In this document: positions 3,001-42,456 of the stretch, one piece after another
Layout of the letters: every line of letters begins with the position of its first letter
Position numbering within the stretch: position 1 is the stretch's first letter
Assembly (NCBI GenBank): GCA_033816765.1
Contig: CM066287.1
Coordinates: forward strand, 2,108,001 to 2,172,000
Length of the DNA stretch: 64,000 bases
From: Nothopassalora personata
Taxonomy: Eukaryota; Ascomycota; Dothideomycetes; Mycosphaerellales; Mycosphaerellaceae
Direction of reading: 5' to 3'
The notes under the pieces: generated by a model
Seen by the model: the letters and a program-made list of their open reading frames with translations, nothing else
The model's database searches: none
What the model was told of the DNA's origin: nothing
Position numbers and translations under genes: made by a program

Positions 3001-3201
3001 CCGTCGTCCGCCCAGCTGCACTGTTGAAGCGGCAGCTGGACGAGCCGACGGTACAAACACTGATGCTGTTGCCTGCAGGCGAGGATAGGCGAGATGCTCG
3101 TAGAGGTTGGAATCTACGGGAGGGTCCTTACCGGACGTTGCACGTTGGGGAATGTCAGCCCTCTGAGTGTTGTGCGTACGCTCAGAGGTTAGACTTTTTC
3201 C
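1..3201 (-). CDS. Pol polyprotein of Ty3/gypsy element (partial)
   Basis: Open minus-strand frame of at least 1067 codons, without its own clear ATG, running off the left edge. Visible in order: aspartic protease with LDTGCTS near 2860; reverse transcriptase with KKPGGGLRVCVDYRAINEIT near 1980-2040 and the catalytic YLDD near 1705-1716; RNase H with DASDTVTAGVLSQPD near 1200; then SDHRGLEYFMTTKQLNRRQA near 930-1010; integrase zinc finger (HH..CC) near 300-430; the first two integrase Asp residues in TMDYVVELP and YSDRGSQW. The third acidic residue and the integrase C-terminus lie outside the window. The frame is -1 relative to gag and overlaps its end by about 12 nt, so Pol is probably made as a Gag-Pol fusion by -1 frameshifting. 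No internal stop was found in the whole frame. Confidence 0.93.
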
Positions 3202-5234
3202 TCAACACCAGGCACGTCGAGAGTGCTGTTGTTCGGACGACGCGAGGCCTTCTTGTATGGTGCATACGGGCATGTTGGAAGGGTCTTGCGGCATCCCTCC
3301 TTCTTGCAAGCAAAGCACTTAGTGCGGTCGTCGAACTCCTTCTGGGTAATGGGCCGGAAAGATGAGAGACCGCCATCCTTGGCCTTGTCCCAATCATAGC
3401 CGTTCTTGAGTGCATCATTGGCTTTCTGGAGAGGTGACTTGTCGTTGCCGTCGCCACCAGTTCCGCCATGGCGACGACCTCCGCCGCTACTGCCGCCTGC
3501 CTTATCGTGAAGGAAGTCAGCCTCGATCATGTGGAGCTTGTCCTTCATAGCCATGATATCCTTGAAACGCTCGCCACGGATGCAGTCGCGGTAAGCCTTG
3601 CTGAGCTTTGCCCGCATCTGCTCGGGCAAATCATCTGGGTCATCCTTGTCGTGTGAGATGTATGGCAGATATGACACGAACTTGGCCCAGAACTTGCTGA
3701 AAACCTCGCCGTCACCCTGCTTGAGGTACTGATACTCTGCACGCTTCGTGGTGCGCGTATGCTTATCGCCGCAGGCCTCGTCGAGCACCTCGAAGACGTG
3801 ATCCGCCGTAGCCAGTGTGGACTCGATAGGTTCGAGGACACTGTAGGCGAATCCAGTGGTGCAGTTGATGACAGTAGCTTTCAAGTCTTCGTCGCTGAAG
3901 CCCTTGCAACCCATACGTAGGTAGTACTTCATCTTCTGCTTCCACTCGAGGTAAGGCTTCTGTTCCTTGCCTGCCTCGCCGGAGAATGCATCCGGCGCCT
4001 TGATGCCGCTGGCGCGTGCTTCGGAGCCTGAACAGGTCGGCCGAGCATCATCATCGTCGTCGATGAGTTCTTGAGCATGTGAGCTGCGCTTCCGACCGAG
4101 TATAGCGCTGATACCGGAACCTGCTGGGGAGACGCCTCGTGGCCGCGGCTTCGGCATTGGTGTACCACCAGCTGATCCGGCCGCCTTGCGCAGCGGGACC
4201 TTCGTGGTGTGGGTGGTGTACCGACGTCTGAGATTGGCTTCCGACTCGACGTCGGAATCGTCGCCGTCGGTATCCTGGAGGTACTTGCCTAGTCGTGCAA
4301 GTGTTGCACCCTCCTTCTCACTGTCGTCAGCTTCTGTTTCCTTTGCCTCCATGGCCTTGAGACGCTGCTCTAGGTCTTGCTTGTCCTGTCGAAGGGCCGC
4401 CAGCTCAGTCTTGTACGCGGCGAACTTGTCGATGGCTTCTTCTATCATCTTTGTTGAAGTCTTTTCCTTCTTTTCCAAGCGCGTGATCACCTTCTCTTGC
4501 TGGGTGATAGTCTTGTCCTGTTGGGCGATAGTATCTTCGTGCTGCTCGATGAGCGCATCGTGTTCCTCAACGGCCTCCTCGCTTCTGGCGATAATCAGGT
4601 TGACGTTGTCGAGTACGTCTAGGAAGCGTTTGGCACCGGCATCCGGGTGTTCCTCATTGCCCTGGTTGACGACCAGCTTGAGGTCCTTCGCGTTGCCGAA
4701 CTTGAAGTTGTTGACCTTGTACCGGGCCTGTAGCAGTCTGTGACCTTCGGCATTCTTGTAGGTGGTAATGTCGCGTGGCACTGCCCAGCCGAGGTCGCAG
4801 TGCTCTGTCTGTCTAGCCACGGTTCCCTCGTCCTTGTTGTACGTGAGGCGGTCCGTGGAGTTCCTCTGCGCATACTCTTCGCGCTGCTCCTCTGTCAGAG
4901 GGTACTTCTTCGCTGGCTTCGGAGCCGGTGCTGCCGATGCTGATTCTGACTGTCGGCCAATCGTCTCTTGCGTGTCGGCGACGACAGTTCCCTTCTGCTT
5001 GAGCGGGCGCCCTGGCGTCGGCTCGTCGAGATTGAAGTTGCCTGTTACTTTCGGTGTAACTGCGTCGTCAGCACTGTCGAGTTGGCGCCGAAGTCGCGTG
5101 GTGGGTGGCATAGAGGATCGCTCTCGTGGTGATCGGTCTCTTGGTAAGTCGGGTCGCTCCTCGTCCTCGCCTCGAGACTGTCGTCGGCCTCGCTGCGGAG
5201 GAGGAGGGTTTGGAACTGCTTGTTCGCCTTCCAT
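3189..5234 (-). CDS. Gag polyprotein of Ty3/gypsy element
   Basis: A 681-residue ORF. The N-terminal third is charged and low complexity. A coiled-coil-like stretch (about residues 210-300) is rich in Glu, Gln and Lys. The capsid-like region around residues 430-570 contains FSGEAGKEQKPYLEWKQKMK, a usual start for retrotransposon Gag domains. The C-terminus has a zinc-knuckle-like CFACKKEGCRKTLPTC; the histidine of the usual C-x2-C-x4-H-x4-C knuckle is replaced by cysteine and the last spacing is longer. The start ATG at 5234 follows the primer-binding site by about 20 nt. It ends at the TAA at 3189, next to an A5 run where ribosomes could slip into pol. Confidence 0.9.
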   Translation of the reverse strand: MEGEQAVPNPPPPQRGRRQSRGEDEERPDLPRDRSPRERSSMPPTTRLRRQLDSADDAVTPKVTGNFNLDEPTPGRPLKQKGTVVADTQETIGRQSESASAAPAPKPAKKYPLTEEQREEYAQRNSTDRLTYNKDEGTVARQTEHCDLGWAVPRDITTYKNAEGHRLLQARYKVNNFKFGNAKDLKLVVNQGNEEHPDAGAKRFLDVLDNVNLIIARSEEAVEEHDALIEQHEDTIAQQDKTITQQEKVITRLEKKEKTSTKMIEEAIDKFAAYKTELAALRQDKQDLEQRLKAMEAKETEADDSEKEGATLARLGKYLQDTDGDDSDVESEANLRRRYTTHTTKVPLRKAAGSAGGTPMPKPRPRGVSPAGSGISAILGRKRSSHAQELIDDDDDARPTCSGSEARASGIKAPDAFSGEAGKEQKPYLEWKQKMKYYLRMGCKGFSDEDLKATVINCTTGFAYSVLEPIESTLATADHVFEVLDEACGDKHTRTTKRAEYQYLKQGDGEVFSKFWAKFVSYLPYISHDKDDPDDLPEQMRAKLSKAYRDCIRGERFKDIMAMKDKLHMIEADFLHDKAGGSSGGGRRHGGTGGDGNDKSPLQKANDALKNGYDWDKAKDGGLSSFRPITQKEFDDRTKCFACKKEGCRKTLPTCPYAPYKKASRRPNNSTLDVPGVEEKV
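3190..3201 (-). other. Gag-Pol overlap and putative -1 frameshift site
   Basis: On the coding strand the gag end reads GAG GAA AAA GTC TAA. The pol frame opens just before, at a TGA at 3202-3204, and reads GGA AAA AGT CTA ACC through the same bases. The A5 run (3195-3199) lets the Lys codon AAA re-pair after a -1 slip, giving the junction EEK-SLTSERT. The heptamer does not fit the X-XXY-YYZ rule perfectly, so the exact slip mechanism is inferred. Confidence 0.5.
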
Positions 5235-5254
5235 GATGGTGGGATGTTGACAAT

Positions 5255-5262
5255 CGCTACCA
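5255..5262 (-). other. Primer-binding site, initiator tRNA-Met 3' end
   Basis: Between the 5' LTR and the gag ATG the coding strand reads TGGTAGCG, complementary to the 3' end (CGCUACCA) of fungal initiator tRNA-Met. The match is eight bases; the next bases (ATTG) diverge from the yeast tRNA. Confidence 0.5.
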
Positions 5263-5270
5263 CTCGGGTC

Positions 5271-5557
5271 TGGTGCTAGAGCGCGTTGCTCGAGCTGACA
5301 ATGCGCTGTTAGTTTGAGCGCGCTGTACGGATCCTTGCGGACGCGTGCAGCTTATGAGCGGTAGATTGTAATGACACGGGCGATATGAGATCCGGAGAGT
5401 GTAGGAGTCAAGTCGTGAATAATACAATCTACGAAGAGTCTAAGAACGAGAGAGAAGAGAGAAGCAAGGTCGATCTCGTGCCAAGCCGCGCTAACCCGAT
5501 CCGGAAGGTCCGCGGTTAAGCCGGCGAAAGGTCCAAGGTCAAGGCCACCCCGTGACA
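5271..5557 (-). repeat. 5' LTR of the Ty3/gypsy element (inner boundary approximate)
   Basis: On the coding strand the LTR starts TGTCACGGGGTGGCC at 5557, a typical fungal gypsy LTR start, exactly where ordinary base composition gives way to AT-only DNA. The inner end cannot be fixed without the second LTR: CACCA at 5271 leaves an 8-nt spacer to the primer-binding site, while ACA at 5307 is an alternative. Length is therefore about 250-287 bp. Confidence 0.55.
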
Positions 5558-6793: not shown

Positions 6794-8788
6794 TTAGTGT
6801 GTCATGATCTGCTTGATGGTGCTCTGGTGCATCTTCGCCAGCCACGATTTGGCATAGAACGTGCGTATCCTCTTGCCCCAGATCATAAAGACCACGACGA
6901 ACAGGTTGTTGACCAGGAGCACAGCGCTGAAAGCGCCGGCAATGACCACGCCGTATCTACATTGCGGAGTCAGTCGCGTCTTCCACGAAAAGCAGTGGGC
7001 AGATAAGAACGATGCCGTACCCAGATTCCTGTACCCAGTCTAGGAGGTATATCCCGAACGCGAAGCTGATGAGCTGCTTGCCAACGCACATGGCGATCAG
7101 CGTCTCGGACATGTTGGCGCTGTAGGAGTCGATGGAGTAAGCCAGGACGAAGGTGAAGTAGGCGACTTTGAAAAGCAGCATTAGCATGGGTCGGTCATTC
7201 GACCATCATCTTCGACCACGAGAATGAATATCACCACTTACAACTTGCCCAATCCACCATAACCACTCCGGCAAAGTACCCGATCCAGTGCAAATTTCTC
7301 TCCCCCGTCGTGCCATACACGACAAGTCCCGCCGGCGCAATCAACATGGGAACCAGCATGACACCTACTCGAAGGTCAGCTCTCCAGCTCTGAACCTCTC
7401 GGACTCTCTCCAAGGACACTTACCCAACCTCATCTCCGCCTCCCTAATGCCCCCATTCCTCTTCGTCAACCTCGCCGCAAGCCAATCACTCGTAAACGTG
7501 AACGGCAAAGCCAGCGCATACCCAATGATATTTCCCAGCGCGATCAGTCCGGAATTCTCCTGGCTCCAATTGTAGGGTGGCGCAACAATCTTGACCGGGA
7601 AAGTATAGTTGAACACAAGCGCGCCGAGACCTATATAGATGCCATAAGTCGTCACAACCCAGACCACCGAAGGCACGAGGAAATACGTGAACGACCTCGC
7701 AGCCGTGAGGAAGAACTCCTCGTCATGGTCTATGCTGTTCCACGGTTTGAGGGAGGCGATGAAAGTCCTGCGCGGTGGGGGGGCCGCTTGGACGGAGATA
7801 CTTTCAATGTGATCCTTCTCCAGCTTGGGTTTGTCGAGAGAGGCGGTAGTGGTGGTGGTGGAGGTGGTGGTGGTGGCGGGCGGTAATGGGCCACTGCCGG
7901 GAGGGGCTCGTTTGTAGGCCGTCTCTTCGACGAAGAGGAAGGCTAAGATGAGAAGGAGGCTTGCAAAGGCGATCTCGACGTAGAAGAACAGGTGCCAGCT
8001 GTGGCCGCCAGAGAGCATGTAGCCGGGATAGAGGGGTCCTGTGCTGCCCCAGCAGAGGCAGATGGTGTAGATGCCGAGTTTGGTGCCGCGTTCGTGGACT
8101 GGATTGGTCAGTATGCGGTATGATGGTGCGGAGTGTGCTGACTTACGGAAGAAGATGTCGTTGACCAGCTGTACAGGTAATGCTTCACATACTCCGCTGG
8201 CGAGAGTGTGGATCACTCGAGCAGCCATCAAGCCCCCATATGAGTTCGCTTGACTCGCGCCAATGAGTCCAGCCAAGTAAACGGCCAGGCTGCCGAGCAT
8301 GACAGGGCGTCTGCCGAATTTGAGGTACATAGGTACCGTAATGAGAGTGCCGACTCCATAGCAGATATTGGGATACGAGATCAAGCCGGATGCCTTGGTA
8401 GTTGAGATGCCGAACTGCTCGGCGAAGACGCTGATGTAGACTGATGGACCTAAGAGAGCTGTATTGGAGAGGAAGGAGTAAAGCGAGCATATGATCAGAA
8501 TGGCCATCTTCTTCCATCTCTCCCATTGAAGCCTTGATGATCAGTCAGTCCCGAAAGCCGCGTAGTAGTATGGACAGGACGTCAGGACTTACGGGTCGTT
8601 TGGATCTTCAGCTGGCACGGGGAAGAGTGCCTGGCCGTAGGCAGTATCATCTCCTTCCTTGCCTCGTAGATCGACGGTGCCGGGCACATCGCCTTCTTTT
8701 GCATGGCTTCAATGCCATTAGCTGTGGTGTACTGCATTGTAATTGACAGCCCTTACCTGTACACCAAGTGAACCTCGTTTGACGCCAT
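6794..8788 (-). CDS. MFS transporter, DHA1/HOL1-like
   Basis: Major facilitator superfamily membrane transporter, probably a proton-coupled exporter or permease; the substrate is unknown. Proposed exons: 8757-8788, 8593-8706, 8147-8532, 7424-8098, 7242-7364, 7021-7165, 6794-6956. All introns are short GT...AG, and the frame closes to 545 residues. The N-terminus has PGTVDL and NDPLQWERWKK, a usual lead-in to TM1 in fungal DHA1 proteins. Next come about 12 hydrophobic segments, a GRRPVML loop after TM2, and FFLHERGTKLG across the third splice junction, which supports that in-frame 48-nt intron. A long Thr-rich cytoplasmic loop (poly-T near 7835-7885) splits the two halves. The last exon is hydrophobic and ends in a basic tail. 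Start ATG at 8788 gives MASNEVHLVYS; a further upstream exon cannot be excluded. Confidence 0.85.
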
Positions 8789-9281
8789 AATGATCAGGAT
8801 ACTGCAAGTGAAGTGAGACTTGACAGGACGTGCGAAGGATGAAGTGGGAATTTTCAAGCCTACCTTCCAGCCATTCGGCTTGTAAAACCCTCAGATCAGC
8901 CGTTCTTTTCGACAAGGCGCGGCAACAACGGCCACACGGTAGTGATCATCGAAGCGTGTCAGTCTGCGGGGATATGTACTGCAAGCAAGAACGGCAACGG
9001 TGGGCCAGCCATAATGAGCGTGTTCGGTGGACTTCACAGCAGGGCATAGCATGAAGAATCCGTGAAACCACGAGCTATAAGCGTGGTGATAGGCAGGCTC
9101 TGACCCCATGGGGAGCAAAAGCTTCATCAAGGGTTATGTGGTTGCAGGTATAGGGTTAAGCGATATCTGCAGATCTCCCCAACGCTCGGCAGTTGTCCTT
9201 CGTGTTGAAGCCGGGGTGTGCTTCAAGCGACACAGGCAGCTTCTCCCCTTGAGTCGCCTGGCCATCTCAACAAAGCTTTCC
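8789..9281. other. Intergenic, no gene seen
   Basis: Space between the divergent start of the transporter and the 3' end of the nucleoside hydrolase. Short open frames here have no recognisable protein character. It presumably holds the transporter promoter. Confidence 0.5.
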
Positions 9282-10406
9282 TCATGGCACTGTCAATTTC
9301 TTCGTTGCCGTCTCGGCTCGTGCGAGACACTCTTCAAGCATCCTCCATAGCGTGTCCACGGCCACAGACCTTGGGATCCTTATACCAGGCTGACCTTGTG
9401 GTAACAATTCCGCCACAGTCCTCCCGCACTGACTTTGGCCATCGCGAGCAGAGTCAGTCGTGTCGTGTGCGCCTTGAGTAACCACATGTACTGAGTACCG
9501 TTCTCCTCCGTTGTCGCCGAACAGTCCTGGTGCGAATATGGCCGCAACAGCCAGAGGATCATGAGTTGGTGGGCCGGTAACAAGTCCAAAGACATCTGCA
9601 TATGTTTTCGCGAAGAAGGTGAGGATTTCGGAGAATAGTCTCCGAACGACCGGGACGTGATTTAAGGCTTCTTTGGTGATTCCTGCTGGCTCAAATCCGG
9701 AGTTGAAACCATACAGCATACCTCTCTGGATCTCCGGTGTGGCGAGAAACTGGTGTGACAAGTCGAGGGGTACGATGGTAGTTTTCGTTGCGAGCACCTC
9801 GTTGTTGAAAATGGCGTTGGCAGACTCCGGATCCAACCAGATATTGAACTCTGCCCAAGGTGTCCAGTTGCCAAACCTTTCACCTTCACCGTCGACCTCT
9901 CCCATTGGAGCATCTGTAAATCCGCCACCGATGGCGCCTCCCATGATACTCACACCTGCGACGTGCTCGGCCAAGTCAGGATGCACAGCAAAGAGGAGCG
10001 CCGAGTTGGTCAAAGCTCCCACAGCCACAAGCCATGCGGTCCTAGGCGGTGTCGAGATCAATGCTCGATACATCGCCTCAACGGCCACCATATCACTCCT
10101 GACAGGCACTGTAGGTGATGGCAGGCAGCTTGTGCCATCGAGCCCGGTTTCGCCGTGGATGTCCGCCGCGGCGTGCACCCGTCGGCAGAATGGCTTGTTT
10201 GCTCCAGCATATACCGGTACATCTTCCCGGTTGATGGCTTTGAGGATAGCTCTGGTGTTGTAGGTGGTATGATTCAGCGGTGCGTTGCCGTAGGTTGTGG
10301 AAATGCCCAGCAGCAAAAGCCGAGGATGGTGAGCTGCGAGGAGTATGGCGAAAGCATCGTCATGTCCAGTATCGCAGTCGAGCCATAACGAAATAGTCGC
10401 TGTCAT
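9282..10406 (-). CDS. URH1: Inosine-uridine preferring nucleoside hydrolase
   Basis: Hydrolyses the N-glycosidic bond of ribonucleosides (uridine, inosine and related) to base plus ribose in the salvage pathway; probably cytosolic. The Ca2+-binding signature LDCDTGHDDAFAI lies at residues 8-20, followed by TTYGNAPLNHTTYNT and VYAGANKPF, the usual family blocks. The core has VSIMGGAIG and EFNIWLDPESAN; the C-terminal active-site segment is THDPLAVAA. The length is 374 residues from the ATG at 10406. The open frame continues 26 codons upstream to 10484, but those residues have no family counterpart, and the chosen start places the metal motif where it sits in yeast Urh1. No intron is needed. 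Confidence 0.9.
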   Translation of the reverse strand: MTATISLWLDCDTGHDDAFAILLAAHHPRLLLLGISTTYGNAPLNHTTYNTRAILKAINREDVPVYAGANKPFCRRVHAAADIHGETGLDGTSCLPSPTVPVRSDMVAVEAMYRALISTPPRTAWLVAVGALTNSALLFAVHPDLAEHVAGVSIMGGAIGGGFTDAPMGEVDGEGERFGNWTPWAEFNIWLDPESANAIFNNEVLATKTTIVPLDLSHQFLATPEIQRGMLYGFNSGFEPAGITKEALNHVPVVRRLFSEILTFFAKTYADVFGLVTGPPTHDPLAVAAIFAPGLFGDNGGERYSVHVVTQGAHDTTDSARDGQSQCGRTVAELLPQGQPGIRIPRSVAVDTLWRMLEECLARAETATKKLTVP

Positions 10407-10574
10407 GATGTGATGTAGGTGTTTGTCTGTAAACCGTGAGTGGCAAGTTACAAAGTTTTGATGAGAGATGTGGGCTTCGGGCAAGTGCGCCGAGCGTGCT
10501 GTCTATTTAGCAAGCCGTCGTGCCAGCAAATGAGCTTTGTTAGAGTACGATAAGGGGTATCTCGTTCAAGCAAA

Positions 10575-12294
10575 TCAAAGTAGCACATAGAGAGCACAAA
10601 GCTACGACATGTTAGTCACGCGCGAAATGCTGAGAACATCTTTCACTCACCAGACTTAATCCCAGAATCATACTGATCCAGAAGAGGACATTGTTCAGAA
10701 GTTCTCGTCGTTTGATGAAAGGCAATTGCTGTATCGCGACGATGGGAATTTGCAACATCATCATAACGAAGCCGTAGCCTCTGAATTTCCTCGTGATGCA
10801 GCCCATGATCAATTCATGCGCAATTGCCGATATCAGGAACGTCAATCCAGTAGCAGCAGGCCTGGACATCACGCCACGGCTTGCGCTGTACACATGTCGC
10901 CGGAAGAAGTGATGGACCGGAATGTTCCATTCGCGCGAGAACTCCATCCAGTCCGTGCTGTTCCACCAGTCGTCGTAGAACTGCCGATCGGCGAAGCGCG
11001 TGATCTCAGCAAAGGCGCCAAGGACGTATTCGAAGATGACCATGAAAACCAAGAGGAAGGTGATCATGAACGGGAACAAGAGCCGGCTGACAGCCTCGGC
11101 GAACATGAGTGCGCCATCAATCCCGGTCCTTGACCGCTGTAACCGGAGCCGTGACTCGTCCAGGATTGGGATGATGAACTCCTCACTCACGACGGTCATG
11201 AGGAAGATGCAGCCAAACACCGCCAGCGTCTTGTAGAAAAGCTCCACATATGATCGCTGTGCCATTCGTGGGTACTCCAATTCATAGCACAGTGTGGGAC
11301 AGAGGACATAGTCGGCGAAGTTGGCGACTGTCAAGTTCTGAGGGTATGTGACATTGCCCATTGGGGATGTAATCTCCTTTGCGAGATCTTCACGGAGCTG
11401 TAAGACTGACGATAGTCCCGGCTCTTGCTTGTCCTCGTCCTCTCCAGGAGTGGCCTCTGACAAGCGAAACGAAGCTGAAGGGTAATGCACTGCCGCGTCC
11501 AAAGGCGTGGCCGGACCGATGGGCATGTCGAGCTGCTTCAAGCGCCAGAGTGTGTCCGACAAGTGGCCGTTGTAGAAGGCGTATGAGTGCATCTTCATGA
11601 ACAGCACAAGGGTGTGCAAAGTGAAGTAGACCTGGGCTGTCCAAGTCCAGTCACGGAGGAAAGGCCAGCCTACCCAGAACCATAGCCAGGCTGCTTGGTA
11701 TAGAGACTGGACGACAATGCCTCCTCTTTTCCACCGCAGTACGCCGTTGCTCTTCAGAAAAAAGAGGTGCAGCGGCAGGCTTACGGCAGTGCTGCTACAC
11801 ATCAGCACGTCGCTGAGGCCTAGCTCTACCAGGTCCTTCGTGAACAGAGGCCATTGCCTGAAGTTCAGCAGGGCGCCCGTTTCTCTGAGGTTGCGCAGCA
11901 TCTGTGTGATAACCATGATCGCAAGGCCGATCCAGAAGAGGACGAAGAAGCCGCGGAAATTGGCATAGCTGGACTGCGGATCGAAGTAGGAGACGCGCTC
12001 TTGATAGTCCACCGTCGGAAATATACGCCTTCTCGTCGCTCGTCTATTCGCTCGTCTCGCGGCAGAGGTCGCCTTGACTGAAGGAAGGGCATCGTCGGGC
12101 GGAGCTGGCGTGTTGCGCTCGCTGATGATGCCGGAGGCCGCTGCTGCTCGCTGGGCGTTGGCACTGAGTTCGTCGTTGAAGGCACGAGCTATCTGCGGAT
12201 TGAGCTTGCGTGCCCGCGTGGGAGACGGGTGGTGGATGTCCTTGCTGTAGCCATGTCCGTTGGCCCCGTTCGTCTGGGGACTGCTGTCGGACAT
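10575..12294 (-). CDS. ARE2: Sterol O-acyltransferase (ACAT/ARE type, MBOAT family)
   Basis: Esterifies sterols (ergosterol and precursors) with fatty acyl-CoA in the ER for lipid droplets. Exon 1 spans 10651-12294 and a 27-nt terminal exon spans 10575-10601. The 49-nt intron has a GTGAGT donor, TGACTAAC branch point and TAG acceptor. Splicing replaces a short readthrough tail with LLCALYVLL, which resembles the hydrophobic C-terminus of ARE proteins. The product is 556 residues: a polar N-terminal cytosolic region of about 100 residues, then multiple TM helices. The family signature FYDDWWN is followed by WNIPVHHFFRRHVY and the catalytic His in AIAHELIMG. ATG 12294 (MSDSSPQ) is preferred; an in-frame ATG lies 12 codons upstream. 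The ARE1/ARE2 paralogue cannot be decided. Confidence 0.9.
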
Positions 12295-13678
12295 GGTGCG
12301 AGTCGATGCTGTGCCACAGTACAGCTGCACAGGTACCGCAGGCCGTGGCGCGACGGGACAATGTGGTGGTGGCTTCTAAGTGAATGTGTACGGACGGACC
12401 TTGCCGTCGTTGGAGAGCAATCACTCAAAACATGGTGCTGTGGCAGATACCTACGCTTTCAAGAGTCCCTAATCGTCACTTGGACGAGCAGCAACAGTTC
12501 TTCGACCAGAACGACCAGCCAGCCAGGATATCTGGTCAGAAGAGCAAGCTGTCTTGGGACCATGACATCAATTTCCGATATGCCGCGGAGGTCGGGACGT
12601 GAGGCATCAAGGCATCAACTGTTTGCCCTCCATCCCAATCTTCACATGAACATGTCTTCGCTATCGCTCTGTAGACTATCGTGGGCCTTGTAGTCAGCAG
12701 CATTGACATCAGCTATGACTACAGTGGTACACAAGTCCCTACAGCGGGCATAATTGACACAACGAGCTCCAGCTTGGGTCGACCTCAGCTGTCATCTTCT
12801 AGCAGTAGCGACTGTATGCCGAGTGGCCATCACTCCATCCTGACTGATCATACCATCTGCTGTAACCATGTCAAGTCATCAACACGTGATGCCACGAGAA
12901 GAAGCATGCGAACCCGCAGAAGGATCGTGCTATAAACAGCACATGGCGCGGCTCAATTTTTTACGCCTCCACCAACGATACCAAGCTTGCATACACTTCA
13001 CCAAGGCATCGAACATGGCCAGTCTACAGATTCCCGTTCTGCACATCATCTTGATATGGACGATCCAAGCGAGAACAACGAAGTATGGTCTTTACTGCCA
13101 CGCCTACCATCATCCTCGGGCTCGGAGCCACAACTGCTCAGCTCTGTGAGGAATCGAGCTGTCTCAAACGGGCTTGCTTACGCCCAGAAAAGATATGCTC
13201 TCTACTCACTACAGCTCCGCCCACCTGAAATGCCACAGATGTATACGAGAATCGGTACGACCGTCTTAGCTCATGCTTTGCAAATTTAGCATTTTCGATC
13301 ACGCACGTCACTTCTGATCGGAATTATTCTACCAGTAGGGGACCTCACGCTGCTCTGCATACATTGGACTTAGCAGCCGCAAGCCACTGCGATGTCTCTC
13401 GTGTCACTTCCTACGGAATGGCATGGAAATAGTGACAGACGGCTGAGGAAGATCCTCTTGCCTTTGCGTCCTCGCCGCATCGCAGCGACGAGGGGATGGC
13501 ATCATGCTCTGGCAACGCTACGCTACAGACGCTACGCTACAGACTATGATGGAGGTATATAGGTCGGCTTCCTTGCTCTCTAGGTTCCCTTCATCATCAA
13601 TCCAGCTCAGACAACAAGCAGTTCTGTACAGTATCACCTCCAACCAGAATCCTTCCGTACTCCAAAACATCTTCCACA
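12295..13678. other. Intergenic, promoter region; no gene seen
   Basis: A divergent intergenic region between the acyltransferase and the repeat-peptide gene. Several open frames of 70-150 codons occur but lack protein character. A TATATA box at 13556-13561 sits about 120 bp upstream of the repeat-peptide ATG, preceded by a tandem duplication of GCTACGCTACAGAC at about 13516-13543. Confidence 0.45.
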
Positions 13679-14515
13679 ATGCAACTCTCATTCACCCTCC
13701 TTGCCCTAGCGGCAGCCGCAACAAGCGTCTTCGCTCTGCCTACTGCAGGCACTGCAGCAGCAGACGACGGTTCCTGGAGTCCTGGAAAGTATGAAGTAAG
13801 TCGTCGAATCCACGAGATCAAGAGGTGTCAATATTGTTGAGGGCGCTTCACAACATCGAACTCGGATTCTCAGATATCCTAGAGGCGTTCCATCCTAGAT
13901 CTTCGGAGACACTGCTGCATAACTCTCAATCAGAACTAACGATCTTGTAGGGTCCCGGAACTCCTTACGATGACGGCAGTTGGTCAGCCGAAAAGTACCC
14001 AACAAAGCGCGCTGATGACGGCCTTTGGTACGAGGGAAAGTATGAGGTATGTACTGCAAACCCCATGGCAATCGCTCAGTCAGTACGATATTTTGGGGAC
14101 ACTCTTGCACTGAGGCGTCCACCCTCTACTCTTGGATGAAGCTCGCAATCTCAAGTCCCAATCCGCTGCCATGATTTGCTGCCCCAGCATCACAACATTT
14201 AGCCTTTGACCGTGGCTAATGCTTCTGCTTCCATAGGGTCCCGGAACTCCTTACGATAATGGCAAGTGGTCACCGGAGAAGTACCCAAGCAAGCGCGCTG
14301 ATGACGGATCATGGTATCCAGGTGAGTTGTCCGCGGCATACCTACCGCATTGTGGGGTTGCTGGGTTGCTTGATCTCTTCTTTCTTCTGAACGTACACTA
14401 ATCCAATGTAGGAAAATATGAAGGCGAGGGAACAGACTACGATAATGGGCAGTGGGAGGAAGGAAAGTACGAGGGAGGCGAGACTGGCTACGATGATGGC
14501 CAGTACCACGAGTAA
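13679..14515 (+). CDS. Secreted Kex2-type repeat peptide precursor
   Basis: Four exons: 13679-13795, 13951-14046, 14237-14321 and 14412-14515, giving 133 residues. The first 19 or so form a clear signal peptide (MQLSFTLLALAAAATSVFA). The rest consists of about three imperfect 32-residue repeats. Each starts ADDGxWYxGKYE, continues GPGTPYDxGxWSxEKYP and ends in a Kex2 site (PTKR, PSKR); the last repeat diverges and ends DDGQYHE without KR. Exons 2 and 3 begin with the same codons (GPGTPYD) after phase-0 introns, so one repeat module equals one exon, a sign of exon duplication. Processing at KR in the secretory pathway would release Tyr/Trp/Gly/Asp-rich peptides of about 30-40 residues. Family not recognised; this architecture is shared by fungal Kex2-processed repeat proteins, including some RiPP precursors, but no modifying enzyme gene is visible nearby. 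Confidence 0.8.
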
Positions 14516-14712
14516 ACGATAAAGTCGACCGAGCTGGCGTTACCGGCGGGCAGGCGTGGATCAAGGCATAGAACTAGGGGTAAAAGGACGGTCTATACTG
14601 CTCAGAGATCATGGGCAACCAGCACCACAGATATGTAATGCTACTATAGAAATCAAGAATTGAAACCCTGATTAAGCTGTCAGCCCGCAAGATATCCCAG
14701 ACCGCAGCACCC

Positions 14713-15132
14713 TTAACCCACCCTAACTGCAACCATCACACTGCCACCAATCTTCTTCACCACCGGCGGCTTGCCTTTCTTCCAACGATAAACACCATCA
14801 TACACCACATGCCCGCACCGCCCATCATCCCGAGAAGCTTTGATACACTTCCCAAAACTGCCGGCGTTGTAGATCGAGTCTCTATAGTACGGTGCCGTAG
14901 TATCAGACGCACACAGAATTCTCAGCCTCGTGGTACCCACCAAGGCCTGGACTGTCCCATCAGCGTTAGTTACGACAGAGTGGCCGCGAGGTCGAAACGG
15001 TAGCTGTTGCGGCGGGTTTGGTCGTCGACTCCGCCATAGCAGGCTTTGCGGTATCGAGCGTCCACCTCCCAAACCACTGCACCGCCTCCTTACTCCGTTC
15101 CCACTCTTTCCGGTCTCTGCCTGCTCGATCAT
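14713..15132 (-). CDS. Hypothetical protein, uncertain model
   Basis: Open frame whose C-terminal 85 codons look protein-like: VVTNADGTVQALVGTTRLR, then ILCASDTTAPYYRDSIYNAG, three cysteines, and a basic end with KKGKPPVVKKIGGSVMVAVR. The upstream part is better in another frame (CYGGVDDQTRRNSYRFDLA just before 15000), so either an intron or a frameshift is missing from this model. No family recognised. Confidence 0.3.
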   Translation of the reverse strand: MIEQAETGKSGNGVRRRCSGLGGGRSIPQSLLWRSRRPNPPQQLPFRPRGHSVVTNADGTVQALVGTTRLRILCASDTTAPYYRDSIYNAGSFGKCIKASRDDGRCGHVVYDGVYRWKKGKPPVVKKIGGSVMVAVRVG

Positions 15133-15497
15133 GCCTTCCCTGGGCAGTCGGCCTCTAGCTTATCTTATGAGGTAGCGTCTGTCCGACGATGATATGAGGC
15201 TCCCCCATCACTTGCCGAAGCGCCATCCTTGCCGAAGCGCCATCCTTGCACGAAATATCCTTGCCGCACAATCCCGAGGGCCGTGCGATCTGCCGTAACC
15301 ATGCGTGTCGACATCGACCAGAGTTCCCTCGGGGGGGGGGGGGGGGGGGGGGTGGACGAAACCAACTACATAGTAGATGTAAGAGGTAGGAGCATCTGGC
15401 ACTTTTGTGTTGAGTGCTGGGTACAGTCTGTCCTCTCCTTCACAACATTCCATCGTCGTCACAAGCGTTGTCTCACATCGACACACAGCAAGGAGAC
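15133..15497. repeat. Promoter region with a 22-bp poly-G run and a 17-bp tandem duplication
   Basis: Upstream of the acyl-CoA synthetase. A 17-bp unit (CTTGCCGAAGCGCCATC) occurs twice in tandem at about 15214-15247. A homopolymer of 22 G lies at 15331-15352. No gene is supported here. Confidence 0.6.
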
Positions 15498-17543
15498 ATG
15501 GCCTTGGGTAAGCTCTAGTGGAGATTCTAGTCTTACGAGGACGCGAATGAGGTGCAGGGAGGTTGACCGTCAACAGCCACCACAGCTGCCATAGCAGGCG
15601 CGAGCGTTGCTGCAGCTTACGTAGACGCGAAGTACCATCTCTCCAAGGACATTGCTGCGATCCAAGAACAGAAACGAATCGCAAAACAATCCCAGCAGCT
15701 AGGTACGTACGTCAGCATCAGGCCATCTCAACAATGCCGCCGCAAGTACAAGCATGCTGACGGTGTCGCGTGCACAGCAAAGGAGAAGAAACTCTCGCTG
15801 TGGTACCGCTTCGAAGAGCAAGCACAGCAACGACCAGAGCAGCCATGCATCTGGTATCGACAACGACCCACCGATCCCGTCACGCGCTACACCTGGACAC
15901 AAGCCTACGACCATGTCAACCGATTCGCCCGCTTCCTCCTCGAGAATGGCGTGCGACCCGGCGAGCTCATGGCGACGTACATGCAGAACTGCCCGGAGTT
16001 CGTGTTCACATTGCTGGGTAGCTTGGCCATTGGGACTGCACCAGCTATGGTCAACTCCAACCTGACCGGCGAGGCGCTCATGCACTCGTTGAAGATATCG
16101 GGAGCCCAGGTGATTCTGGTCGACGATGACGAGGCCAGTCAGGAACGGATGCAAGCCGTCAAGAGCAAGGTGGAGGGGTTGGGTATGCGCATCATCGTGC
16201 TCGATACGGAGACCAAAGACAGGATACAAACCTTGTCAGCGGAACGACTTGGAGATGAGTATCGCCGAGGGGTAACATTCGAGTTCCCCATCTTTCTGTT
16301 CTACACCAGCGGCACAACAGGATACCCCAAGGCTTGCCCGTTCCACACTGGTCGCGCCCTGGGGCTGGGTGAGCCTCGACTGAGGTCAACAAGTCTGAAG
16401 CCCGGCGATGTCTGGTATGACTGCATGCCCTTGTACCACGGCACGGGATGCACCATCGCAATAGGCTGCATGATCACAGGAGTGACGCTCGCCATCGGCC
16501 GCAAGTTCAGCGTGCGCAACTTTTGGCGAGACATCCACGACTCCAATGCCAACGCCTTCGTCTACGTGGGAGAGACAGCACGATACCTTCTCGCCGCACC
16601 TCCTTCACCCCTAGACACCGGCCACAAAGTACGAGCCATGTATGGCAACGGCCTCCGCCCCGACATCTGGCAAAAGTTCCAGGACCGCTTCGCCATTCCA
16701 GTCGTCAACGAATTCTTCAACTCTACCGAAGGCGTCCTTAGCCTCCTCAACGTCTGCCGCGGCCCCTTCCACACCGCCCATGTTGGCCACCACGGAGCTA
16801 TCATGCGCCGCCGCCTCCACAACATCCTCGTCCCCGTCCGCATCGACTTCGAAAAGGGCGACACAATCTACCGCGACCCTACTACCGGCTTCGCAAAACG
16901 CAACTCCTACGAAGAAGGCGGCGAAATCCTCGTCGCATGTCAGACCGAAAAGGACTTCGTCGGCTACTGGAACAACCCCGAAGCCACACAGAAACGTTTC
17001 GAACGCGACGTCTTCAAAAAAGGCGACCTGTTCTACCGTACAGGCGACGCCCTCCGCCGCGACAAGGACGGACGCTGGTACTTCCTCGATCGTCTCGGCG
17101 ATACATTCCGCTGGAAAGCCGAAAACGTCAGCACAGCCGAAGTCGCCGAAGTCCTAGGCCGCTTTCCAGGAATCATCGAGGCCAACGTCTACGGTATTGA
17201 ACTCCCCAACCACGACGGACGGGCAGGATGTGCCGCACTCTATATCCGCCCCGAGGAGCGGGAGAACTTCGACTATGAGGGATTGGTGAGGCATGCAAGG
17301 AAGGGATTGCCTAGGTATGCTGTGCCGGTGTTTTTGAGGATCATCAGGAGTCCGACGCCGATGCATAATAACAAGCAGAATAAGGTGCCGCTGAGGAGGG
17401 AGGGGGTTGATCTGAACAAGATTCGAGGTGGGGAGGCGGGAAGGGAGGACGTGGTGTTGTGGTTGAGGCCTGGGAAGGAGGGGTACGAGGTGTTTACTGA
17501 GAGGGATTGGGAGGGGATTGTGGGTGGTCAGGTGCGGTTGTGA
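15498..17543 (+). CDS. FAT1: Very-long-chain acyl-CoA synthetase / fatty acid transporter (FAT1-like)
   Basis: Activates fatty acids to acyl-CoA and is coupled to uptake; FATP-family proteins are membrane-associated (plasma membrane, ER, lipid droplet or peroxisome). Exons 15498-15507, 15577-15702 and 15778-17543 give 633 residues, the usual FATP length. The very short first exon (MAL plus one base) is supported because splicing yields a hydrophobic N-terminus followed by KEKKLSLWYRFEEQAQQRPE, the family start. The AMP-binding motif FYTSGTTGYPKA lies near residue 220. Later motifs are YGNGLRPDIWQKF, the adenylation loop YRTGDALRRDKDGRWYFLDR, and GDTFRWKAENVST typical of FATPs. The C-terminal tripeptide VRL is at most a weak peroxisomal signal. 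Which of several fungal FATP paralogues it is cannot be decided. Confidence 0.9.
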
Positions 17544-18629
17544 AGGGCAAAGCATTAGTATTCGCCATCGACGGTTCTCCTCTGGCGAACGACGCAAGTC
17601 GGTTTGACATGCGACGCTACCGACTTTGTGAATTTATTGCCTCAACAGCTCTTTACGCTGGATGCTGGGAAAGCAGGTTATTGATCACCAACGGAAGAAA
17701 GCTGGCGAGTCTGCAATGGAGTTGGCGTAGTAGATTGACCGTGTGCCGCAAAAGAACGGCAGCGCCACGAGCATGATCCCTGCGAAGAGAAAAGCTCCGC
17801 GATCAACAAGTCGCTCCTAGTACACAAGTCTTTTCGCAAGATCGACTCTCTACTGCAATAATATCACAACTTGGATAATAGATGAGCTAGCTCTACTGTC
17901 GCCATCGTAGTAGCGGGCAAGTCTGATGAATGCGGAGGGGAACGAAGGTACGTTACGTTACGTTACCTCCGTTGACTTGGGCAACCTTTTCATCCTTCTA
18001 CATAGATGCTTGTACAATGTCGTGAGTGAGTGGTGGGTGATAGTTGGCGAGGTCTTGTTTTCTCTGATGATGATGATGATGATGATGATGGCATTGCGTC
18101 CTTGTCTGCCTTGTGAGCTTTTGGAGTGTCGCGTGGTAGATGTGAGTGAGAGTGGAACGTGATGATAGGCGAGGGAGAGATGCAGGTGTCGTTACGACAG
18201 TGACTGGCGCCGCTACGTGGATCTATCTATCTGCGTTCGTGAATGGAGGAGCGCCTTGTTTGCTGGCTGGATAGATGAAGTGAACAGATAGATGAAGTGA
18301 ACAGATAGATGAAGTGAACAGATAGATGAAGTGAACAGATAGATGAAATGAACAGATAGATGAAGGGAACAGATGGATGGATGGATGGATGGATTGGTGG
18401 ATGTCAACGGTTCATTATGGTAGAGGTTTTTCCGTTCAAAACGCCGATTCTATGGTATCTCGCTCCGTTATCCTGAGACCAGTAGCTGTGCTATACGGCA
18501 CTGTACTGCTTGTGTCCACGCATCGCGTCGTGATATACAAGGTCCTCCTCCTGTACGCCTCATGCGAGTCCCAGAAACTCCAGGCTATGCAAAGCCAAGC
18601 AATGAAGAATGCAGGCCAGATGTTGTTTT
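17544..18629. other. Intergenic with simple repeats, no gene seen
   Basis: Lies between two convergent genes. Holds (TTACG)n near 17950, a GAT-triplet run at about 18067-18091, the 17-bp minisatellite listed separately, and GGAT tetramers near 18372-18396. No coding sequence is supported. Confidence 0.6.
18271..18372. repeat. 17-bp minisatellite, six units
   Basis: Six head-to-tail copies of ATAGATGAAGTGAACAG. The first four are identical and the last two differ at one or two positions. They are followed directly by (ATGG)n. The apparent long minus-strand frame over it only reflects a period that is not a multiple of three. Confidence 0.9.
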
Positions 18630-20064
18630 TCAAGTGCAGCCGTTGTAGCCCTGTTGTTGCCACATCTTCACGCTCTTGACCTTCATCTCGCCGTTCTTCT
18701 CCCACGTGGGATACCACTGGCTGCGCGCGTTCCAGAAGTCGCGCTTGGCGGTGTCGGAGGCGTCGACCCAAGGCTTGCTGGCCCTTCCATCCTGGAACCA
18801 GCCATTGGTACCACCGACAGCGACGTTGAGAATGAGGTAGAAGTTCTGGTCGAATGGGGTGCTGTCGTGACCAGTCTGTGACCAAGGGTCGACGAGACGG
18901 GTGCCGTTGCTGCTCGAAAGGGGGAACTTGCCCTTCTGCCAGAACGGCTTGTCGAAGTTGGTGTAGAGTACTTGGAGCAGGCGGGTGTCGATGTATGTGA
19001 AGATGTACTTCTCAGTCCATTCCATGCCGTAAACGTGGAAGTCAGCGGAGTAGGTGGTGTGCAGAGCTTTGCGCTTGACGTTGTTGCGCCACCAGGCATT
19101 ATTGTCAGGGTCGGGTCCCCAGTGGAGTGCAGAAGAAACGACATCGTTGCCGCCCATCGGGTATGTGTAGTTGTTTCCGCGGGATTCCATCATGTCAATC
19201 TCACCAGACGCCGGCCATGGACCATATGTCTGGTTGACTGGGAGAAGCCAGATTGCCGGCCACAGCCAGTCACCTTCAGGAATCTGCGCCACGACCTCGA
19301 CACGGCCGTACTGAATCCTCGCGCCGGCCTTTGTGCTCAAACGAGCTGACTTGACAGGATTGACGACGGTACCGTTGGTGGTGTTGGTCACGGCGATGCA
19401 GTTGTACCAAACATCGGAAGAGCAAGTGCCGTCCATGGTGAGGTTGATAACATTGTTCGACTCGACGAGCTTCTCATCCTGGAGTGTTGGCTTGATGTGG
19501 AGCATACCGTCTTTGATGAATGCATTCTCCTCGGTGGTAGTGGTCTGCTCGAATTGTCCGTTTCTGTAAGGAAATTGTTAGCGATTGGTTTTCAGTCGCT
19601 TCTTCCGAATGGATGATCACTTACCCGAATCCACCAACCTCAGCCTCCTTCGTCCATATCTTAGGGTCAAGGCCGTTCGAGAAGTCTGTGTCCAGCACTG
19701 GGCAGTAGGTGTGATTGTTGGCAACTTTCTGTAGGCCTTCGTAGATGAGGAAACCGGCCAGGCCAATACCGAGGATCATGCCGATGATTGGCAAGATCCA
19801 CACCCACTTCTCCCTTGGGTCCTTCTTCTCGAGCCATGGCTTCTCAATCTCTCCCTTGTTGATGCGTCGAGAGTGGAAGTATCTTGGAGGAGGTGCTTGA
19901 TGGACTCCGGTCGATGAGCCCATCGCAGATGCTGGCATCGAGCCATATGGAGACTGGAACGGGTTTGATGGCACAGGCGCCATCTCTTCACTTGGATCGC
20001 TGTCGGGTGTGCCAGACCTTGTGTGCGTGGCCGTTGTGGTGGCCGCGCCATGACGGAAGCTCAT
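18630..20064 (-). CDS. Membrane-anchored GH16 endo-beta-glucanase
   Basis: Glycoside hydrolase family 16 enzyme acting on beta-1,3(/1,4)-glucans, probably in the fungal wall or periplasm. Exons 19625-20064 and 18630-19563 (61-nt intron, GTAAGT donor) give 457 residues. There is no cleavable signal. Instead a Pro/Ser-rich cytosolic N-terminus of about 90 residues precedes one TM helix (WVWILPIIGMILGIGLAGFL), so it is a type II membrane protein. The catalytic motif GEIDMMESRG (nucleophile and acid/base Glu separated by IDMM) lies near residues 266-275. WPAIWLLP before it and YGMEWTEKYI and FYLILNVAVGG after it are family blocks. Several NxT/S sites are present. The end at MWQQQGYNGCT matches the close of the fold. 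Confidence 0.9.
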
Positions 20065-22298
20065 CTTGTATCGACGGCTGCCCTAGCAGCGATGGAGATG
20101 ATGAAGCTGGAAACAACTTCTGCTCAATGTTACCGTCGACACAACACGTTGCACCCGGATTGACGATGACCAGAGCAACGCAAGCAAATAGAAGGGTGGG
20201 CCAGGAAGAACACCATTTACTCTTACGACAGGCCAGAGCTCCTATTAGAGGTACCAACCACTGCCACAAGGTTAGCACCGCTCTGGTAGATCGTCAACGC
20301 TCCAGTCTCGTGGATATCTGACTTCGGCTCGAGCGCCGCCATTAGACAGAGCGTGCCAAGACAAGGGCCAGCTGCATATCAACAATAGTGCTTCGAAGCA
20401 TGTGCACTTTTGAGACCCAGATCGTGTCGTTGAGACGGTGGCTGATGATGCAAGGACACAAATCCTGCAGCACCCAGAGGTCATGTCTAGTTAGGGTAGG
20501 TGGGACTTGATCGTTTCCAGATAGAGACGCACTAGAAGGATACCCTACGCCCCCCTGTCTTGCCTGGAAGTCTGAGGCGAGTTGATGCCATCTCGACCTC
20601 GCATCGTCGCTGGAGATGCTCTCACGTATTCCCTCAGCCTCAGCCTCAGCCTCAGCCCTTCGCTACACAAGAGCGTGATCTGATGAGCCAAGACATGTTC
20701 CATGCGAGACGCCACCGGCAGGCGAATCGTCATGGAACTGCTGTCACGGCGGCTTCGTACTCAGCCGCCCGTCGACTGAAAAGAGACTTTCCTTCAACAA
20801 AGTCTCTCTGGAGCCACTAAGCCAACAAGTGGTGACGCTTGCCGTGTCAATACGGTGCACCTACTTGCACCGAGCGCAATAGCACCACGCAACGTCTGTT
20901 GTTGCCGCGGCGAAGATCGCCAAGACACGGCCTGTCTCAGGATAACGAACGTTCACGGGCCGCTCCATTATGGCGACATTGGCCGATTACACCTTACCGT
21001 ATTGGTGAGTGCTGCAAATATCACCTCCAGGTAATCCTTATTAGATAGACGGCATGTTGGATATCACATATATCCAAGAACAGCCACATGGTGATGATCC
21101 CTGCGAAACGATAGACGGCTCACTAGGACATCTAGGCCACCGCAGCAACCCGGCTTTTGGGTTCGGTCGAGCTGCCGGCTCCCGAGCTAATTCTGCGGCG
21201 GACCGAGACACGGCATGGTCTTGGAACCACCGAAGACTGCTGGGACATGGCCAATGACACGAGACAGCCGAGCTCGATACCACCCGGAGAGCCATGGATA
21301 TTGTCCCATGGCTCAGCTACGTTCCACACCAAATCAGAATGGCGGACCCTAGGAAGATGGATAACCCTCGACTCATGGTGAGACTGGAACCAGCTCACGT
21401 CTCCGTTCTGGCCCGCGTGCTGACAGTTGCATTCTCGCTATCTCGGATCATCGCCTCAAACATGTTGCAATCTATTAGGCTCGTGGCTGATCTTGACATC
21501 TAATCTCAAGACATTTGCTTCCACCTGCAGGATGATGTGTACCTCGACCCGCCCAAGATGCTCGAGACATTACCAGCAGCTTTAGGCGACCAGTGGCGAC
21601 CACGTTACGGTAGTTTTGTGCAGCCACAGCAGCTTTTCGTAAGCCCTTCCGCTCGTGGGAGCAGAGTCGGGATTCACTGTTCGGTAACCCTAGATGTCTG
21701 TGGCATGGTAGTGACGTGGACACAGCAGCTCGTCGCACGAGGCCCCCGTTGGTGAGGATCTCACTACCAAAAATATGGACGATATGATAAGATTTCGTGG
21801 GCCTATGCAGATTACAACCAGCTTACTCCGAAGCTTCCTCAAAACCTGTCGTGTGTGAGACACGCCGTGGGTGAAGTACCTTCGAGAGTCGGCGGATCAA
21901 CACGCTCGAGAGAGCAATGCCGTGTTCCATTTCTGGATTTGTTGGCGCACAGGTCAATTTCAGGTCACGTGTGACGAAGACGCTTTGACAGAAACGCTGC
22001 AGCATCAATCATAGATGGCCTTGTGGTCAATACTTCACGCGAATCTCGATGTTGACTGTGAATTTGATGTCCTTCGACGAGCGTCTTGTACTACCAGGAT
22101 AGACGAGTAACGAGTACTGGAGAGTTTAGTCTTTGATCGCGGAAGTGATGCACATGGCCTTCAGCTGTGACAGCAAACAGCAAGCTTAACGATCTATCCA
22201 CACCAGGAGTCCGCTTGGTCAGTCCTCTGCACGCAATCTCCAATCTCGAGTAGCTAGCTAAACACACTTCCGCACTCTCTCCATCCTCTATATAGAAC
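20065..22298. other. Long gene-poor stretch
   Basis: About 2.2 kb of ordinary base composition with only short, unconvincing open frames. A CAG-CCT-rich run (CCTCAGCCTCAGCCTCAGCC) lies at about 20634-20654. I see no gene, repeat boundary or RNA here. It may hold the upstream region of the GH16 gene and old, unrecognisable remnants. Confidence 0.4.
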
Positions 22299-29738: not shown

Positions 29739-30585
29739 ATGTCTCAGCAAGCACTCAACAAGATTGCGCCCAACTCGCCATCGCGAGCCAAGCCAAATGA
29801 GATCGAGACCAACATTGCGACGGCTCTGTACGAGCTCGAGACCAACATTCCAGACATGAAGGCCGCCCTCAGGCCACTGCAGTTCGTGTCTGCCCGCGAG
29901 GTAAGCTGATGGTTGTAGCCGAATGGAAGTAGCAAGCGTCGAGAAAGCTGTGGCACAATCGGCACCGCCATTGGATGCACAAGAGATGGAACGTGAGAAC
30001 ATATGGTCAATATACCTCGATACACACGAAACGAAGAGGCGGTGGGCACTGGGCAGCTTTGCGCTGACACCAGGATTCTTACAGATCGAGGTCGGCCACG
30101 GTCGCAAGGCCATTGTCATCTTCGTCCCAGTTCCGCTCCTTCAGGGCTGGCACCGTTCCCAGCAGCGGTGAGTACATACATCACCTCATCCAACACTTGC
30201 AGCTCCTAACATCATCCTCAGCTTGACCCGTGAGCTCGAGAAGAAGTTCTCCGACCGCCACGTGCTCATCGTCGCCTCCCGCCGCATCCTGCCACGCCCA
30301 AAGCGCAGCAACCGCAGCCGCACCTCGCAGACCCAGAAGCGTCCACGCAGCCGAACTCTCACCGCTGTCCACGACGCCATCCTCGCAGATCTCGTCTACC
30401 CAGTCGAGATTGTCGGCAAGCGTCTGCGCACCAAGGAGGACGGCGCCAAGATCCTCAAGGTCGTCCTCGACGAGAAGGAGCGTGGTGGTGTCGACTACCG
30501 CCTCGACACCTACTCGGAGGTCTACAAGCGCCTGACTGGCAAGGGTGTCAACTTTGAGTTCCCACAGACCGCTCATGAGATCTAG
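29739..30585 (+). CDS. RPS7: 40S ribosomal protein eS7
   Basis: Component of the small ribosomal subunit. Exons 29739-29900, 30085-30167 and 30222-30585 give 202 residues, the normal length. It starts [15 protein letters not shown]. Family blocks include [74 protein letters not shown] and [19 protein letters not shown], ending [10 protein letters not shown]. The 184-nt first intron is longer than others in the window, as is common in fungal ribosomal protein genes. Start and both splice junctions are fixed by conservation. Confidence 0.97.
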
Positions 30586-38574: not shown

Positions 38575-38712
38575 AGATAATGTGAGTAGATTGATGTATT
38601 GAGAAGGATCTACGAGAATGCGAAGAACAGCTAGCTATAAGAAAGTGCAAGAAAGCGCGCTAGTGGCTTGGCATCCAAAGAACTGCTGGGACACAGCCAG
38701 CCAGCATCAAGT
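38575..38712 (-). repeat. 3' LTR of the copia element
   Basis: Identical over 138 bp to the 5' LTR at 42467-42604. On the coding strand it starts ACTTGATGCTGG and ends CTCACATTATCT. The element's ORF ends inside it (stop at 38660). A purine-rich GGCATGGGGGTG directly precedes it and could be the polypurine tract. Confidence 0.88.
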
Positions 38713-42253: not shown

Positions 42254-42456
42254 ACACTGCAGAGCACCAACTAGGTGTCACTGCGATACTTGCCGCGTTG
42301 CCCACTGGGTCGCGACTTTGTCGTTTGCTATTTGCTGCAGTCGCGTTTTGTCGCAATCACCAACCAGGCGCTGTCGACATACACGCGATCAGCAGGATCA
42401 CATACACACTATCAAGTGTCTTTCGGAGGTATGCGCGCAGTTGATAAGCGCGAGGG

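Follow-up and report, generated by a model that had tools for sequence, protein, structure and literature searches.

Gene model and encoded protein

The window, i.e. the whole stretch of 64,000 nucleotides of the Nothopassalora personata genome analysed here, contains a small gene at positions 13679-14515 of the forward strand, where a sequence-only reading had placed a precursor of Kex2-separated repeats. These limits proved correct, and the gene is real, with four exons joined across consensus splice sites (Table 1) to give a spliced frame of 402 nt that encodes 133 amino acids and a stop codon. The donor of intron 3 is GTGAGT, with a branch-like site CTAAT and acceptor TAG, and the branch-like sites of introns 1, 2 and 3 begin 15, 21 and 14 nt, respectively, before the intron end. 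The Fulvia fulva homologue P0002 (74% identity over 86% of the query, the highest identity among the matches that cover most of the protein) stays in step with the spliced frame across both KR sites, and this lends support to all three introns.

The precursor runs from MQLSFTLLALAAAATSVFA through LPT into seven sub-units. Its N-terminal 20 residues are hydrophobic (GRAVY 1.75) and similar N-termini occur in relatives, as judged by hydropathy and not by a predictor, whilst the LPT at the putative signal-peptide cleavage place recurs in several of them. The uncut mature chain has a computed mass of about 12.5 kDa.

Elsewhere in the window three reverse-strand frames could be recognised by eye, i.e. 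one of 1205 aa resembling a Copia-type retrotransposon polyprotein, one resembling a retrotransposon Gag, and one resembling the translation release factor eRF3/Sup35, with an N-terminus rich in Q, G and Y. Between the precursor and AMP-binding genes lies a further reverse-strand frame of 139 aa, with a few cysteines and no Pfam match, which could represent either noise or one exon of a gene for a small secreted protein.

Table 1. Positions of features in the window (numbering from its first nucleotide)
Feature	Position	Strand	Remarks
Retrotransposon Gag-like frame	3189-5351	-	by eye
MBOAT acyltransferase	10612-12375	-	other side of the precursor gene
TATA-like box, TATATAG	13556-13562	+	candidate from sequence; 117-123 nt 5' of start codon
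Exon 1	13679-13795	+	signal-peptide-like start and most of sub-unit 1 (ADDGSWSPGKYE)
Predicted signal peptide, residues 1-19	13679-13735	+	...VFA/LPT; from hydropathy, exact cleavage site putative
Intron 1	13796-13950	+	155 nt, phase 0, GTAAGT...CTAAC...TAG
Exon 2	13951-14046	+	96 nt, phase 0-0, one complete repeat (GPGTPYDDGSWSAEKYPTKRADDGLWYEGKYE)
Putative Kex2 site 1, KR, residues 58-59	14005-14010	+	register as in Fulvia P0002
Predicted released peptide 2, residues 60-89	14011-14290	+	30 aa, monoisotopic mass 3405.51; coding sequence interrupted by intron 2
Intron 2	14047-14236	+	190 nt, phase 0, GTATGT...CTAAT...TAG
Exon 3	14237-14321	+	second repeat copy
Putative Kex2 site 2, KR, residues 90-91	14291-14296	+	register as in Fulvia P0002
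Predicted released peptide 3, residues 92-133	14297-14512	+	42 aa, monoisotopic mass 4752.85; coding sequence interrupted by intron 3
Intron 3	14322-14411	+	90 nt, phase 1, 11 nt upstream of intron 1/2 position
Exon 4	14412-14515	+	last part of sub-unit 5, then 6 and 7 (no KR) and the stop codon
Small frame, 139 aa	14713-15132	-	
Run of 22 G	15331-15352		intergenic
AMP-binding enzyme (PF00501)	15567-17543	+	adjoins the precursor gene
Ribosomal protein S7e	30172-30582		
Copia-type polyprotein-like frame	38660-42277	-	by eye
eRF3/Sup35-like frame	52223-54397	-	by eye

Repeat structure and predicted fragments

The product had been described as about three near-identical repeats separated by KR sites. 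The repeats are real: displacement of the mature sequence against itself by 32 residues gives 46 identities, compared with a maximum of 24 in 2000 shuffles (shifts 5-59), and the next peak, of 28 identities at a shift of 17, likewise exceeds every shuffle. The 32-residue period corresponds to a double unit, ADDGxWxxGKYEGPGTP followed by YD(D/N)GxWSxEKYP(T/S)KR, built from sub-units of the type DDGxWxxGKYEGxGT that are present in seven copies, with KR after the second and the fourth. Both inter-repeat KR sites are confirmed, and the description is refined to two KR sites only and three fragments, so that a single fragment has Kex2 sites on both sides. Each fragment holds two or more sub-units of 15-17 residues, and three sub-units, of which the last (seventh) is short, follow the second KR with no KR between them. 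The predicted fragments (37-38, 30 and 42 residues) are acidic, with pI 4.05-4.30 and GRAVY -1.0 to -2.0, and the mature part contains no cysteine.

A family conserved among distant ascomycetes

That the predicted products match no known peptide, as the sequence-only reading had it, holds in so far as the family is unnamed and this protein has no Pfam or NCBIfam match, but it is no orphan. An initial protein search returned 15 proteins at E <= 1, and a profile of 12 sequences returned 41 at this threshold, of which 38 matched at E <= 1e-3, ten of these being profile members. The named sources are Fulvia, Verticillium (two species), Fusarium (17 rows), Apiospora, Sarocladium and Pyronema (two species), genera that we take to span Dothideomycetes, Sordariomycetes and Pezizomycetes. 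The architectures vary: Verticillium P0016 has three KR sites separating four repeats, P0033 has five tandem sub-units with no dibasic site between them, and P0041 (E 4.4e-5) has one module, then KR, then a cysteine-rich stretch.

Searches of Pfam (E <= 1) and NCBIfam (E <= 0.1), MORN included, assigned the window protein to no family, and the repeats of P0002, P0005, P0016, P0033, P0040 and P0041 gave no Pfam family above cut-off; a resemblance to MORN seen by eye was rejected, there being no Pfam support for it. In the organism's own genome (54.5 Mb, 40 contigs) the best candidates scored included no paralogue, i.e. no match at E <= 10 outside the gene. Solved structures yielded a single match (E 0.46), and AlphaFold predicts disorder for the Fulvia homologue, with a mean pLDDT of 45.6. 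Of two pattern scans of a prokaryote genome collection, one gave 35 matches, among them no confirmed relative, and the other, with a degenerate DDG[ST]WxxGKYEG-type pattern, had no exact hit; viral contigs gave 31 pattern matches and no relative. P0014 and P0015 (E 0.36 and 0.71), bacterial-looking environmental proteins that carry DDGSWHKGKYEGRGTGRDDGSWYEGKYD beside a C2H2-finger-like motif below the Pfam cut-off and that are absent from the matches in the prokaryote collection, were considered as bacterial relatives and treated as unproven or convergent, as were the short DDGKWYPGKY-type matches P0045, P0046 and P0049-P0053 (E 5.3e-4 to 0.44). Full-text searches with motif strings, judged on titles and the starts of abstracts, with supplements and figures outside the search, gave no match on a fungal peptide; six locus tags were not mentioned in the literature searched, and a search on Kex2 with Mycosphaerellaceae found a different protein only. 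On the sequence comparisons, the family is uncharacterised yet not an orphan, and is conserved across distant ascomycetes.

Dibasic sites at sub-unit junctions

Absence of the KR sites from homologues would speak against Kex2 processing. This possibility was tested on the junctions between sub-units in 43 proteins, i.e. the window protein, P0001-P0012, P0016-P0043, P0047 and P0048 (P0013-P0015, P0044-P0046 and P0049-P0053 were excluded, and hits in P0047/P0048 that fell outside the module, five in all, were removed by hand). A dibasic site was taken as KR, RR, KK or RK, and junctions were classed, by definitions made after the sequences had been seen, as direct (3-6 residues after YEG) or long (more). 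Loss of the sites was mostly not seen: a dibasic site ends no more than two residues from the sub-unit start at 37 of the 50 long junctions, with 13 lacking one so close, and at none of the 87 direct junctions. These counts are not independent, because the proteins are related, and the corresponding Fisher value of 9e-23 hence does not represent a probability for independent samples. Chain-initial sub-units, tallied apart, have a dibasic site in 9 of 33 cases.

Eleven of the 13 exceptions are of the Pyronema type (P0018, P0020 and P0039, which are named so, and P0005 and P0017, which are alike), and the others are ARET in P0003 and ERS in P0022; at several of the Pyronema-type exceptions KR or RR is found some residues further upstream. 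Ahead of a later repeat, P0005 has the spacer KREAEAEA and P0018 has KREAEVEA, both of Ste13 type, i.e. with XA or XP following the Kex2 cut, as described in the excerpted text of PMC6339444. A kexin-like gene is present on contig C5, recognised by a P-domain match together with a subtilase-like part, membrane span and tail read by eye. Taken together, the junction counts and the Ste13-type spacers favour Kex2 processing, and cleavage at the KR sites, as predicted from sequence, is well supported by conservation. The reading of the gene as a Kex2 repeat precursor is supported because the KR register is kept in relatives and a kexin-like gene is present, although several sub-units without a dibasic site (in the C-terminal fragment and in P0033) indicate that release is not universal.

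Introns and the origin of the array

The evidence on the proposal that the array grew by duplication of intron-exon units is mixed. Exons 2 and 3 do open with an identical 21 nt directly after a phase-0 intron, and introns 1 and 2 both fall in phase 0 at the codon boundary GKYE/GPGTPY, so that intron position agrees in two of the three repeats; the third repeat is off-pattern, its intron being of phase 1 and displaced upstream (Table 1). Exon 2 is identical at 77 of 96 nt to exon 3 extended by the first 11 nt of exon 4. The comparison of exons 2 and 3 gives dS 0.75 (20 synonymous sites) and dN 0.14, values that carry no significance figure and on which the peptide looks constrained, with synonymous sites having drifted far.

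Introns 1 and 2 themselves have no significant similarity, their best match of 11/12 nt being reached by 9% of 300 shuffles and equalling the 95% point of 500. In a power test, true copies were recognised in 118-193 of 200 cases at d = 0.5, 48-116 at d = 0.7 and 24-30 at d = 1.0, with ranges that depend on indels; since power at dS 0.75 is weak, the dissimilarity of the introns does not decide against their co-duplication. Introner-like elements were considered and rejected, as none of the three introns has a genomic match other than itself at E <= 10 (very common words skipped).

Copying of whole intron-exon units, which is compatible with any function of the product, accordingly draws on the shared codon boundary and phase of introns 1 and 2 and on the symmetry of exon 2, which comprises one repeat. 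Set against it are the lack of significant shared intron sequence (a weak test at such divergence), the start of the detected repeat at the acceptor TAG, the different location of the intron in the third repeat, and P0003 (from an 11.3-kb contig), in which three repeats lie in one uninterrupted frame, a case known at the protein level only that hints that arrays without introns exist. Relatives of Fulvia are reported to have gained introns in parallel within a 15-bp window (PMC4457414), which also weighs against co-duplication. On balance we regard it as a credible origin of the array whose chances fall somewhat short of even. Whichever way the array arose, exon 2 is symmetric and equals one repeat, so that its skipping would be expected to alter the number of peptides whilst leaving the frame intact.

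The module on secreted enzymes

With the repeats of Verticillium P0016 as query, the double module was found in P0047 (E 3.1e-9), a secreted glycerophosphodiester phosphodiesterase (GDPD) from Cercospora kikuchii, and in an unnamed protein similar to it (P0048, E 3.7e-6), in both directly after KR and between signal peptide and catalytic domain. In addition, three sub-units stand at the C-terminal end of the lysophospholipase fragment P0040 (E 2.3e-5). The closest GDPD of the organism's own genome (C2:4109541-4110515), 81% identical to the Cercospora kikuchii protein, has an aromatic-rich N-terminus and no module; at this locus (L025, G000:C2:4108500-4111000) the Trp/Gly/Asp-rich N-terminal sequence SGYGGWQHWGKQWSDWWKSHSDD is found where the Cercospora protein has its GKYEG module.

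Recurrence on different secreted proteins argues for a property that is useful in cis, e.g. surface binding, and suggests, by sequence, a reusable surface or binding module. Its presence on GDPD and lysophospholipase favours a cis-acting binding role over that of a receptor ligand.

Proposed mechanism and alternatives

We consider it likely that the gene encodes a Kex2-processed secreted repeat precursor that releases three linear acidic peptides, most likely acting outside the cell at a surface; the precursor reading is supported by the intact spliced frame, the repeats, the conserved KR register and a dN (0.14) below dS (0.75). In the mechanism that we propose, the signal peptide would send the chain to the endoplasmic reticulum, a kexin would cut after each KR in the late Golgi, and a Kex1-type carboxypeptidase would trim the K and R, whereupon the cell would secrete three acidic peptides, linear and 37-38, 30 and 42 residues long, with two or more sub-unit copies apiece. 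The released peptides would probably be unfolded and unmodified, and would most likely bind or coat a surface, either the fungus's own wall or the host apoplast. This last is the least certain step, argued from composition and module reuse; the repeats would then serve to present several copies of an aromatic module that binds weakly.

The leading alternative is that the peptides serve as signals, the product then being a secreted signalling peptide or pheromone-like hormone. The Ste13-type spacers of P0005 and P0018, which together with the Kex2 sites recall ascomycete alpha-pheromone precursors, and the retention of DDGxWxxGKYEG across distant ascomycetes would both fit. However, the mature part is free of cysteine, the predicted peptides of 30-42 residues are longer than the 9-24 given for alpha pheromones in the excerpt of PMC6339444, KR in the window protein is followed by AD and not by a Ste13-type XA or XP dipeptide, and the occurrence of the module on enzymes also argues against a signalling ligand. 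Whilst it deserves consideration, we judge this use unlikely.

Alternatively, the chain might remain largely uncut and serve in the wall or apoplast as a small repeat protein, with KR sites that are incidental or only occasionally cut. Such a protein would be consistent with the five tandem sub-units of P0033, which have no intervening dibasic site, with the module as an uncut tail in P0040, and with the last fragment of the window protein, in which almost three sub-units are uncut. The distribution of dibasic sites (37/50 long versus 0/87 direct junctions) and the Ste13-type spacers in two relatives are evidence against it, making an uncut chain distinctly unlikely.

The earlier suggestion of a RiPP is not supported, as there is no UstYa match nearby. 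A six-frame search for UstYa (PF11807), from which weak members may escape, detected 15 across the genome; contig C1 has a single one, at 6.54 Mb, which is 4.4 Mb from the precursor gene at 2.12 Mb. Seven nearby frames (window 7365-20082) comprise an MFS transporter, a nucleoside hydrolase, the MBOAT acyltransferase, the AMP-binding enzyme, a GH16 enzyme and two without match, and include no RiPP tailoring family. Although signal-peptide-like start, repeats and Kex2 sites are shared with ustiloxin-type dikaritin precursors, and the predicted cores include Tyr and Trp, the distance of the sole C1 UstYa match, the absence of tailoring families and cores of 30-42 residues, compared with which dikaritin cores are much shorter, make a dikaritin RiPP with peptides cross-linked by UstYa-type enzymes highly improbable. 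We note that a UstYa-type gene in the dikaritin setting is on average 3.09 genes away, and that DUF3328 genes are near 22% of the genes for Kex2-processed repeat proteins (KEPs) (both from PMC7329392); the absence of UstYa therefore counts against cyclisation only, not against a KEP.

Comparison with known systems

According to PMC9769878, little is known of what fungal repeat peptides released by Kex2 do. With the KEPs, as excerpted from PMC6339444 and PMC7329392, the precursor shares a signal-peptide-type N-terminus, near-identical repeats and KR between repeats, and its fragment sizes fall inside the 3-352 aa given in PMC6339444. It differs in having KR only at every second sub-unit and in a module that is found also on enzymes. 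The filter given in PMC6339444 calls for at least four fragments after cuts at KR/RR or KK, compared with two KR sites and three fragments here; P0016, whose repeats are separated by three KR sites, would clear this filter as far as the number of fragments goes. PMC7329392 requires three or more repeats of 8-100 aa in tandem between Kex2 sites; the present protein has three fragments, of which one is KR-flanked on both sides. Since three fragments fall below the KEP filter, we class the protein as KEP-like in kind but of low copy number, and not as a certified member. None of the motifs spelled out in the excerpted text of PMC6339444 (DADAATXYV, YVW, SPPHKT, QKLKVD, EDYXI and XSDW) is alike, with motif 1 of its Fig. 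8 not spelled out there, so that an earlier listing is possible.

Comparison by length and hydropathy only with the Ustilago maydis repellent Rep1 (PMC4617103) shows that the Kex2-released peptides of that protein, at 35-53 aa, are of similar length to those of 30-42 residues predicted here, but are described as amphipathic and fibril-forming, whereas the present peptides are strongly hydrophilic. The secreted GDPD proteins P0047 and P0048 have one double module each, after KR; P0047 is a catalytic enzyme, unlike the precursor.

Implications

A broader and more speculative proposal, which we put forward as an idea with the balance of probability against it, is that DDGxWxxGKYEGxGTxYDDGxW constitutes a mobile extracellular module of Pezizomycotina, unfolded and as yet undescribed, deployed both as Kex2-freed peptides and as a graft that would tether enzymes in cis to the same surface that the peptides coat. 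If this were true, the grafted module would tether phospholipid-degrading enzymes (GDPD and lysophospholipase) to a peptide-coated surface. The binding partner of the module can be sought with the enzyme and with the free peptide alike, which provides a concrete handle on a family that is conserved in distant ascomycetes, including genera with plant pathogens.
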